Positions 4,330 to 7,604 of a DNA stretch of 38,875 nt are shown piece after piece. The first letter of the stretch is position 1. Each line of letters begins with the position of its first letter. The notes beneath the pieces are model-generated. The model was not told where the DNA came from and made no database searches. It worked only from the letters and a program-made list of their open reading frames with translations. Origin of the DNA: an archaeon (GTDB lineage Archaea > Nanobdellota > Nanobdellia > Woesearchaeales > ARS49); assembly GCA_020051845.1 (NCBI GenBank), contig JAGVQG010000061.1:1-38875 (forward strand), read 5' to 3'. A program made the position numbers and the translations under genes.

Positions 4330-4417
4330 TTTAAATAGGATTCATACTATCTTACAGTAACAACAAATCATAATCACCTCTTTTTCCCGCGCCGGCGTCT
4401 CGCAAGAGACGTCGGCG
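4330..4417 (+). ncRNA. Candidate antisense/3'-overlapping RNA: orphan promoter followed by a GNRA-capped hairpin
   Basis: BRE/TATA-like CGAAAGCTTTAAATA (TTTAAATA at 4330-4337) with no obvious plus-strand gene; hairpin CGCCGGCGTCTC-GCAA-GAGACGTCGGCG at 4390-4417 (12-bp stem with one G.U). Confidence 0.3.
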
Positions 4418-6191
4418 AGGGTTTGTTAACGCCAACAGACGAAGCGCTGTTGCGCCTTGAAAGCAATGCGGCCGCTGTGAGCGTGGCGCCGGCAGCCATG
4501 GACACTATGGCGACGATTATCAAGTCGAGATTGTCCATCTCGCGCCTTCGGTCGATGAACATGGCCAAAGGCGAACGCTCCTTCTTGAAGTACATGTCAA
4601 GGTTCGAAAGCTCGATCGCGTACTCCGAGAAAAGAAGCGCGCTGTAGTGGTCCTCGTCCTTCAGATCATTCGCGTACTGGTAGTAGTTATAGCCGACAAG
4701 CGGGAAGTCACCGTCCTGCTCAGCCTGCGCCAACTGCCGCTGCGCGATCGACAGCTTCAGGGCTATGAGTTGCTCCACCTGGTCCTCCTCAAAGCCTGTG
4801 GCGCTCAGGATGACATCAGCCTCGGCCTTGGCTCTCGCCGCCTCACCCAGACAAAGCGCGTAACTCTTGTTCTCGGCATTGCGACGCGCATGATCTATGG
4901 TCTTACCAGTGTCCTCCAAAGCGTCCGGGAAATAGGTGCGCACGTAGCTGAAACGCTCCTCTGCCTCCGATATCTTGTTCAGACAGGAACGCCTGAGCGA
5001 TTCCTGGTCAAGGACGAGCTTCTGTCCTGGAAGACCGAAGAAAGACGACCAACTTCTTGCGCTAACAAGACGCTCCTCTGCATATGCCAATGTCGCGCCT
5101 GCGCTGTCCAAGTCGGTGTCCAATAGGTCCGAGGCTTCAACCAAGGTGTCTGCTGTCTCTAGCAAACGCTCCTGCACACTCAAGTAAGTCTGCAGATCAG
5201 TTATCGTCTCGAGCTTGCGGGACTCTGTCTCGGTGTTCAGCTTCCCGATGGCGAAGAAAAGCTTTCTGATCCTTTCCGATAATCCTGTCCTTGTGAGGTT
5301 GATATTCCTCGTGTAAAGATCATTCAGTTCCACGTTGGCGCGGAAACAATAGGAAGCCGCGCTATAGGGACTGGTGTTGAGAAGCTCCTGGCTACGGCGC
5401 GAGTAATTGGCGGCAGAATCCCTGATGCTGATCGATATGTTGTCATCTGCAATGATGCTTTCTGTGGCGTGCTCCAATTTCCTCGTCCTGTCGCACATCT
5501 GTTGCGCCACTGTTGTGATGCGCGCCTCGTAGGCGGGATCTATCTTGAATTCGGGCAATTTTGTGGTGACATTCTTGCCTGTGAAATGGAAAATGGCCTC
5601 GTCAAGCGTAGCGACCTCCATGACGGTCACATTGTTCTTCCTGCCCCAATCATCCAGGTCCAAAGTCTTGTTGTTCTCCTGCGTGATCTTGGTGCCCTTT
5701 GGAAGAAGCACTGTCCTGATGCCTTGCGCTCCTGCCGCCTCGATCTTTTCCTTGATGCCGCCGACAGGACCTATCAATCCACCCGAATTAATCGTGCCTG
5801 TGATGGCCATATCCTCTCTCAGATTGAGATCGCTGATCAATGACGCAGTCAATACCGCGGCTGCGGCGCCTGCGGAAGGACCGCCGACAAGCCCTGGCGA
5901 GGACACGATGGTGTAGATGAAATCATCATTGGAGCAATCCTGCCTGAGTTCCTTGCAAGCCACCTGCTGCGCGAAACGCATGCTTATCTGCGTCTCCACC
6001 TTGGCCAAGGGCAAGGTCTCGAGGAAAACACGCTCATTGCCAGAACGCACCTCCAAGGAGAGCGAGGCAAGAGTGCCTGTGGCTGTTCCGTCAAGGTTCT
6101 CGGAAAGCGCCAAGAGTTTTATCGTGCCTGTCTGGGCGAGGACAACCGGACAGATAATTATGAAGAGGATTAGCGCGGTCAGATGTTTCAT
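4374..6191 (-). CDS. Membrane-associated Lon-like S16 serine protease without AAA+ domain (COG1750-type)
   Basis: Signal peptide MKHLTALILFIIICPVVLAQ (ORF extends to 6242); VSSPGLVGGPSAGAAAAVLTASLI (Ser motif) and AITGTINSGGLIGPVGGIKEKIEAA (Lys motif); C-terminal TM and basic tail. Confidence 0.85.
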   Translation of the reverse strand: MKHLTALILFIIICPVVLAQTGTIKLLALSENLDGTATGTLASLSLEVRSGNERVFLETLPLAKVETQISMRFAQQVACKELRQDCSNDDFIYTIVSSPGLVGGPSAGAAAAVLTASLISDLNLREDMAITGTINSGGLIGPVGGIKEKIEAAGAQGIRTVLLPKGTKITQENNKTLDLDDWGRKNNVTVMEVATLDEAIFHFTGKNVTTKLPEFKIDPAYEARITTVAQQMCDRTRKLEHATESIIADDNISISIRDSAANYSRRSQELLNTSPYSAASYCFRANVELNDLYTRNINLTRTGLSERIRKLFFAIGKLNTETESRKLETITDLQTYLSVQERLLETADTLVEASDLLDTDLDSAGATLAYAEERLVSARSWSSFFGLPGQKLVLDQESLRRSCLNKISEAEERFSYVRTYFPDALEDTGKTIDHARRNAENKSYALCLGEAARAKAEADVILSATGFEEDQVEQLIALKLSIAQRQLAQAEQDGDFPLVGYNYYQYANDLKDEDHYSALLFSEYAIELSNLDMYFKKERSPLAMFIDRRREMDNLDLIIVAIVSMAAGATLTAAALLSRRNSASSVGVNKPSPTSLARRRRGKKR

Positions 6192-6275
6192 GGTGATTTG
6201 ACCTTCGGACGGGCTTATAAGGATTATGCGCATGGAGAGCAAGAATGACAGGACTATCTCTTTTGGTTAAATAAT

Positions 6276-6311
6276 TACAATAAATTGTATGAAAACGTAC
6301 AAAATATTGTA
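6276..6311. promoter_or_regulatory. Two tandem operator-like dyads TACAA-N4-TTGTA
   Basis: TACAATAAATTGTA at 6276-6289 and TACAAAATATTGTA at 6298-6311, centres 22 bp apart, just upstream of a TATA-like acatttaaatag (~6322-6332) and the 6355 start. Confidence 0.65.
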
Positions 6312-6354
6312 TATCCTAAGAACATTTAAATAGTTGCCCTGATCACTTCCATCT

Positions 6355-6972
6355 ATGGTGACCAGCGCACAGCTCATGGAACTGCTCGACGCCATCGACC
6401 CCTATCTCCCACAACGTGTGCGTCTCATCGCTGTCGGAGGCACGGCCATGACCCTCCAGGGACTCAAGGACTCCACAATCGACGTGGACTTCGACATCGC
6501 CGACTTCGGCGAGTATGAGTCATTCCGTGCAACGCTCGCGACGCTTGGTTTCCAGAACATCAAGCCCGGCGCGACAAACCTCAAAGTCCTCTCCCCCAAC
6601 GGCATGATAATTGACATCTTCTCCGCCCACTACATCTTCTGTGTGCAACTCGTCGATCCTGTCGACACGACACAGGTACGGACATACCGGCGCATAGAAC
6701 TATCGGTGCTCAACCCCTACGACCTCATCATCACCAAGACAGCACGGTCGGACACGCGGGACTATGAAGACATCCTGACGATAGCCAGGACCGTTCCCCT
6801 CGACTACAACCGCCTGCTCAAACGGTACCAAGAGACTGCCATGCGCTCCGTCGTGGCCCACGCCCCACAATTCCTGCTCGATGTATTGACCTTCCTCAAG
6901 AAGAAGGGCATCGCGATACCAGCAACAACACTCAAACACGCACGCACATGGAACGAATCGAAGAACAACTAG
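6355..6972 (+). CDS. Nucleotidyltransferase-like protein (DUF6036/AbiEii-like superfamily)
   Basis: RVRLIAVGGTAMTLQGLKDSTIDVDFDIADFGEYESF: G-G-T-A ... S-x-D-V-D nucleotidyltransferase-type motif. Confidence 0.75.
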   Translation: MVTSAQLMELLDAIDPYLPQRVRLIAVGGTAMTLQGLKDSTIDVDFDIADFGEYESFRATLATLGFQNIKPGATNLKVLSPNGMIIDIFSAHYIFCVQLVDPVDTTQVRTYRRIELSVLNPYDLIITKTARSDTRDYEDILTIARTVPLDYNRLLKRYQETAMRSVVAHAPQFLLDVLTFLKKKGIAIPATTLKHARTWNESKNN

Positions 6973-7604
6973 AACACGCAGGCTATCCTTTACTAGAATT
7001 GGACGACCCTGGCCGCACGCTCATCGCCATCATCACGCAACGCGAACCACGGCTTGTCTACAGCATACCCTACCTCCTGACGACGATGGCCCACGATGCG
7101 CTCACCTTCCGTAGTCGTATCAAACGGACGCTGGCCGCACTGCAAGGCAAGCAACGCGCCATGCTCATAGAACTCCTTGTCATAACCAGCGAACTTTATG
7201 GCACCCTCCCTGACCATGATAGCGCCGCCATGCGGGAACTCCGCACGCTCGTGACGGTGATCGCCCCAAAGAACCTTAACAAGAAGATACGCGCGGCGCA
7301 CGGATCGAACCATACACTACCAAACGGCATCACCATCAACCTCGCCAGCGCGCAAACCACCCTCCTAAACTACACCGCCCGCTCTACCCTCAAGGCAGCA
7401 GGAAGACCGCTGCGTGATGAATTCAGGACACAATACGCGCTTTCCCAACTCTTCACGCAACGACAGAAACAGATAATCATCAAACGCCACGATGGAAGAG
7501 AACTCACAAAAACAGAGAAGGAATATTACAGCCGAGCGATCAAGAAACGAATCAACGCTTTGCTCGACCCTGACGTCAGGACGTTCCTTGAACGGACGCG
7601 GTGA
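6948..7604 (+). CDS. Hypothetical protein with probable C-terminal helix-turn-helix-like segment; overlaps and is probably co-translated with the nucleotidyltransferase
   Basis: 25-nt overlap with upstream CDS; C-terminus LSQLFTQRQKQIIIKRHDGRELTKTEKEYYSRAIKKRINALLDP resembles HTH tails of archaeal putative regulators. Confidence 0.7.
   Translation: MERIEEQLEHAGYPLLELDDPGRTLIAIITQREPRLVYSIPYLLTTMAHDALTFRSRIKRTLAALQGKQRAMLIELLVITSELYGTLPDHDSAAMRELRTLVTVIAPKNLNKKIRAAHGSNHTLPNGITINLASAQTTLLNYTARSTLKAAGRPLRDEFRTQYALSQLFTQRQKQIIIKRHDGRELTKTEKEYYSRAIKKRINALLDPDVRTFLERTR

Follow-up and report, generated by a model that had tools for sequence, protein, structure and literature searches.

In this study, we have analysed a stretch of archaeal DNA of 38,875 nucleotides (the window), in which two overlapping genes probably constitute an autoregulated toxin-antitoxin-like module, with an enzyme as the toxin and its partner as an antitoxin acting on two tandem dyads. 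This reading draws on the pairing of the genes, the conservation of their operator, its covariation with a helix of the partner, the asymmetric decay of the pair and the integrity of the catalytic residues, all of which were computed. Both genes lie on the forward strand: gene 1 (6355-6972, 205 aa), a DUF6036 nucleotidyltransferase and predicted toxin, and gene 2 (6948-7604, 218 aa), the predicted antitoxin and operator-binding protein, overlap by 25 nt and form a small, patchily distributed two-gene unit, as is general for toxin-antitoxin systems. Upstream, two exact matches to TACAA-N4-TTGTA, dyad 1 (TACAATAAATTGTA, 6276-6289) and dyad 2 (TACAAAATATTGTA, 6298-6311), are separated by N8, with centres 22 bp apart, and together form a tandem 36-mer scoring 20/20. 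They are followed on the forward strand by a TATA-like element (TTTAAATA, 6325-6332), which by sequence and position would serve the gene 1-gene 2 unit. The positions, the 22-bp spacing and the TATA-like element downstream are exactly as the earlier note had described them. The divergent neighbouring gene (4374-6242, reverse strand) encodes a protein that is probably anchored in the membrane and has a protease domain of Lon type (S16; Pfam Lon_C, E=5.6e-13).

The nucleotidyltransferase motif noticed in gene 1 withstood every comparison, since catalytic residues, Pfam match, structural model and solved folds agree. Gene 1 scores 35.7 bits against Pfam DUF6036 (PF19502; cut-off 23.6, E=9.5e-9), its sole match in the Pfam search, DUF1814/AbiEii (PF08843) included, and all 17 aligned members match DUF6036 as well. 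The AlphaFold model is confident (pLDDT 91), and its nearest solved folds, with E about 1e-5, are JHP933, the MenT1 toxin (E=1.9e-5) and TM1012; antibiotic nucleotidyltransferases are also found among the matches, lower in the list. The catalytic motif G28-G29 ... D43-x-D45 (6436-6489, forward strand) and residues D87, K128, R131, D136 and D139 are each retained by at least 59 of the 60 intact homologues from bacteria, and gene 1 therefore seems to be under selection for activity. Judged by its residues and predicted fold, it is a catalytically intact nucleotidyltransferase. DUF6036/PF19502 goes unmentioned in the open-access literature that we searched, a scope outside which most subscription journals fall.

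Gene 2 matched no family in the Pfam, NCBIfam and PADLOC models, and a fold search against the PDB returned no solved structure. Its model, of moderate confidence (pLDDT 77), is helical but for one short hairpin and ends in helices 154-168, 171-181 and 188-206, so that the last helices and their turn stand where the earlier note had placed a helix-turn-helix-like segment. The segment LTKTEKEYYSRAIKKRINAL corresponds to the recognition-helix region of this predicted helix-turn-helix, which spans residues 187-206 (TKTEKEYYSRAIKKRINALL, 7506-7565, forward strand) and includes S195, the putative specificity residue; this assignment is based on the arrangement of the helices together with the covariation with the operator described below. 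T189, E190, Y193, R196 and K200 are invariant in 55 Omnitrophota homologues found with a profile. Conservation was recounted on these profile-found sequences, as the invariance of TKTEKEYY in a first bacterial set was partly an artefact of using that peptide as the search pattern. Overall identity between the window's gene 2 and its bacterial counterparts is just 22-30%. By profile comparison, the helix-turn-helix segment also forms the N-terminus of a fusion family with a different nucleotidyltransferase (97%, E=6.5e-11) and occurs in archaeal pairs of swapped order (90%, E=1.6e-6).

The search for homologous pairs suggested in the earlier note found pairs of the same order in bacteria and archaea, and the gene 1-gene 2 pair is thus a conserved unit across both domains. 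In Omnitrophota, Desulfobacterota, Elusimicrobiota, Firestonebacteria and Desantisbacteria, most relatives of gene 2 stand immediately 3' of a DUF6036 gene, with which they often overlap, and the enzyme-then-partner arrangement is found in other archaea too. Among Omnitrophota genomes gene 2 is present in 59/286 and gene 1 in 50/286; this share for gene 2, about a fifth of those sampled, is far above the shares for Desulfobacterota and for the phylum of the window. Gene 1 was found in 4/297 Desulfobacterota genomes, all four with gene 2, and four further genomes carry gene 2 or a fragment of it alone. In the window's own phylum 20/379 genomes have a gene 2 match, about half of these being other arrangements, mainly the fusion family. 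In the enzyme tree the bacterial gene 1 sequences form one clade (100/100), with which the window's gene 1 and four archaeal enzyme-first genes group (82/88). Plasmids searched for homologues of both genes and phages searched for homologues of gene 1 yielded none; plasmids are home to many toxin-antitoxin pairs.

The window holds no other exact TACAA-N4-TTGTA, 0.31 matches being expected even with one mismatch; over the 1.33 Mb of the genome the two dyads are two of four exact matches, and a control pattern written backwards has two. One of the remaining matches, at C18:23936-23949, is a single extended palindrome (GATTACAACAAGTTGTAATC) shortly 5' of an ATG; it is single rather than tandem and probably unrelated. 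Taken alone, two dyads could be luck in AT-rich DNA; on sequence grounds, their recurrence 5' of homologous pairs is not. The tandem operator with its 22-bp period was recovered at 17/20 or better in 52/65 bacterial upstream regions, as against 0/1,792 control windows, which answers positively the earlier question of whether TACAA-N4-TTGTA is conserved upstream of such pairs. Sites matching it at 9/10 or better number 31 in 3,562 upstream positions and only 4 in the 182,341 positions elsewhere in these loci. Among bacterial tandem sites, N4/N8 is the sole geometry that stands out, and half-sites recur at 22 and 44 bp. The operator is conserved 5' of the gene pair across phyla and in both domains.

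The placement of the operator relative to the promoter was also compared. In most bacteria a promoter of TTGACA/TATAAT-like type has its -10 box adjoining or overlapping the array, and this position at the -10 box and transcription start suggests repression by occlusion. In the window and in archaeal loci L047, L050, L057 and L045, the dyads end 5' of the TATA box, with an inner spacer of N3 in some. The distance of 30 bp from TTTAAATA to the gene 1 ATG at 6355 is identical in L047, L050 and L052. The 1.33 Mb genome of the archaeal host contains two TFIIB matches.

An indication that gene 2 recognises this operator comes from residue 195, which covaries with operator base 5 among the bacterial loci. 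Where it is serine, TACAA fits better in 50 loci and TACAT in 4; where it is tyrosine, TACAT fits in 7/7, and the half-site base is T in 27/28. The association is strong (Fisher 7.6e-7, relatedness ignored), and because that test disregards relatedness, the safer argument is the tree: built without the helix, it has branches of good support that require the Tyr label to have changed at least four times, and sister loci differ accordingly (L170 with Tyr and TACAT, L135 with Ser and TACAA). Without supervision, the operator TACAT-N4 was recovered for the Tyr group at 69/70, where shuffles reached 61 at most. Exceptions to the pattern are L031, L126, L179 and L184. Other helices go with other sites: an archaeal subgroup with a YYFK helix (L043, L048, L052) has, by eye, sites like CAAGTTTACTTG about 22 bp apart, and one with a YYYRAIRP helix has a palindrome, TTCATA-N8-TATGAA, lying across the start codon (55/60, at most 49 in shuffles), an operator predicted beforehand for the held-out locus L200 and matched there at 12/12. 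The ATAACCT-N6-AGGTTAT palindromes of class-B relatives, in which the helix-turn-helix gene comes first, did no better than shuffles and were discarded. Given this covariation between helix and operator, we regard gene 2 as almost certain to bind the dyads, as the earlier note had supposed for gene 2 or a complex containing it.

The toxin-antitoxin logic of the earlier proposal gains further support from the way in which the pair decays. Gene 1 is lost or damaged beside an intact gene 2 in 15 loci and the reverse was seen in none (two-sided binomial 6e-5), although two of the 15 are single frameshifts in metagenome bins, which carry errors. Nine of these loci, in which gene 1 is absent, gutted or disrupted by a frameshift, are from Omnitrophota (L114, L116, L133, L136, L170, L172, L173, L181, L186), where the corrected count covered only loci lying clear of contig ends and the same genomes were searched with both genes. 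The others, two from Desulfobacterota (L034, L035) and four from archaea (L044, L045, L050, L052), were found via gene 2, a search that favours gene 2 survivors. Four genes that seemed broken by stop codons were left out of the count, L122 and L183 because the stops are natural ends and L117 and L130 because their N-termini are ambiguous. The lesions differ from one another and are therefore mostly separate events, and several of these loci retain the operator together with the first or last part of gene 1, such as MVANKEEINPLNKEIIKKVKKWE in L045. Away from contig ends, each intact gene 1 that we found was accompanied by gene 2. The asymmetry is in keeping with a toxin role for gene 1 and with gene 2 being its antitoxin and an autoregulator; it also fits a surviving regulator that is useful independently. 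Two solitary, divergent gene 2 relatives in Desulfobacterota (L104, L105) have no nucleotidyltransferase nearby, and L105 carries one TTGTA-N8-TACAA half-array upstream.

The latter thought leads to the alternative that deserves most attention, namely that the enzyme is not a toxin but a beneficial, self-regulated nucleotidyltransferase, serving for example in a stress response or in small-molecule modification, gene 2 being a simple repressor that can be of use alone. The chromosomal setting with no phage or plasmid matches, the solitary relatives just mentioned and the resemblance of the fold to antibiotic nucleotidyltransferases speak for it, but the MenT1 toxin is among the close fold matches, gene 1 was not met intact and unpartnered away from contig ends, and repeated deletions of gene 1 that spare both operator and gene 2 are typical of a gene that is costly. 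We therefore consider this explanation unlikely, while giving it more weight than any other competitor. A still less probable one, which we hold to be a long shot, is that chance palindromes in AT-rich intergenic DNA, or elements belonging to the divergent Lon-like gene, account for the dyads; the two other single matches in the genome and the start of that gene within about 100 bp would suit it, yet the probability is negligible for a geometry that recurs 5' of the same pair across phyla and both domains and covaries with gene 2.

The roles might also be reversed, as in MNT-HEPN systems (HepT-MntA), where a small nucleotidyltransferase stands beside a helical partner, an arrangement common in archaea (PMC2701414), and where the nucleotidyltransferase is the antitoxin (PMC7641770). 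Gene 2 would then be a HEPN-like helical toxin with a DNA-binding domain, and gene 1 the modifying enzyme that silences it. HEPN_Swt1 is matched weakly by 2/20 gene 2 members (best E=2e-4) and some members contain RNxLxH; this form is, however, absent from most, including the window's, and no conserved HEPN Rx4-6H motif was found among gene 2 members. Moreover, it is gene 1 that is lost while gene 2 persists, whereas loss of an antitoxin with its toxin kept should be intolerable. The pair resembles MNT-HEPN in its small nucleotidyltransferase adjoining a helical partner gene, and differs in that its partner has a predicted operator-binding helix-turn-helix in place of a conserved HEPN motif and in that the nucleotidyltransferase is the gene lost. 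We thus rejected gene 2 as a HEPN toxin, a reversal of roles being quite improbable.

The toxin-antitoxin reading with gene 1 as toxin finds its nearest working analogues in AbiE and MenAT, although by the tests run (toxin family, antitoxin family and gene order) the pair is a member of neither. AbiE combines a nucleotidyltransferase toxin with a two-domain antitoxin, the DNA-binding part of which autoregulates the operon via paired inverted repeats (PMC3985639, PMC7319586), and the window likewise has a nucleotidyltransferase, a predicted DNA-binding partner and paired inverted repeats at the promoter. The AbiE toxin, however, belongs to DUF1814/PF08843 and gene 1 to DUF6036; the antitoxin AbiEi (COG5340) has an N-terminal winged helix-turn-helix, whereas gene 2 is unrelated to it in sequence, has its predicted helix-turn-helix at the C-terminus and gave no match to AbiEi models; and the repeats are of 23 bp in AbiE but of 14 bp with a 22-bp period here. 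MenAT1 of Mycobacterium tuberculosis is also a two-gene module, and MenT1 is near gene 1 in fold; the likeness is at fold level only, as gene 1 belongs to another sequence family and no relation between gene 2 and MenA could be detected. Of the likeness to AbiEii and MenT suggested earlier, the fold and the logic stand, and family membership does not. The enzyme-first order, which had been contrasted with the antitoxin-first order of AbiE, proves to be the rule in this subfamily, and related archaeal families have the opposite order.

Several of these relatives rearrange the same parts. Archaeal pairs of a winged helix-turn-helix gene and a DUF6036-like gene (L007, L082, L092, L096; L013, L015) share the enzyme superfamily and the two-gene overlapping unit, but have the helix-turn-helix gene first, another DNA-binding partner and a separate clade in the enzyme tree (100/100); two of them, L013 (G000:C28) and L015 (G000:C68), are further pairs in the window's own genome, with the AbiEi-like, winged-type gene first. 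In archaeal loci L061, L077, L078, L081, L083, L084 and L086 the partner gene is first and its helix-turn-helix is N-terminal in most, so that the order of the genes and that of the domains have changed in step and the middle domain always adjoins the nucleotidyltransferase gene. The fusion family of about 290 aa (L053-L056, L058-L060, L062) joins a gene 2-type helix-turn-helix to a different, MNT-like nucleotidyltransferase; in most cases an overlapping gene of unassigned family, about 108 aa long, comes next, and this may be a further toxin-antitoxin type.

As regards the mechanism, we infer the toxicity of gene 1, its neutralisation, the binding of the two proteins to each other, the target and the sign of regulation. 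The free enzyme would harm the cell by attaching a nucleotide to one of its molecules, perhaps tRNA, the acceptor stems of which receive nucleotides from MenT. Gene 2 would be a two-part antitoxin, its N-terminal and middle helical region keeping the enzyme inactive and its C-terminal helix-turn-helix binding the tandem dyads, where, given the 22-bp spacing, two dimers would lie on about the same DNA face and probably bind cooperatively. At the bacterial operator this would block RNA polymerase; in the archaeal window, where the operator lies just 5' of the TATA box, control may act via the TBP/TFB region. Archaeal activators also bind in that region, and for the window's operon repression is no more than the likelier of the two signs of regulation. 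With 25 nt shared between the genes, their translation is probably coupled. The moderate model of gene 2, the 22-30% identity, the operator 5' of the TATA box and the absence from plasmids were counted against the module.

All together, our results lead us to favour, with less assurance than the module itself, an undescribed toxin-antitoxin family of archaea and bacteria with a new antitoxin and helix-turn-helix family, whose tandem-dyad geometry of 22-bp period and recognition code would be conserved across domains of differing transcription machinery, whose specificity would have been rewired repeatedly (for example from Ser195 to Tyr), and whose relatives swap gene order and antitoxin-domain order together. 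One operator design would thereby serve both bacterial sigma-70-type and archaeal TATA promoters. Recognition-helix residues can be set against the bases read and the gene discarded by the cell, which makes the relatives a natural mutagenesis experiment; an archaeal toxin-antitoxin pair thereby becomes directly testable in laboratory bacteria, and the gene 2 helix-turn-helix family may be a source of orthogonal repressors.
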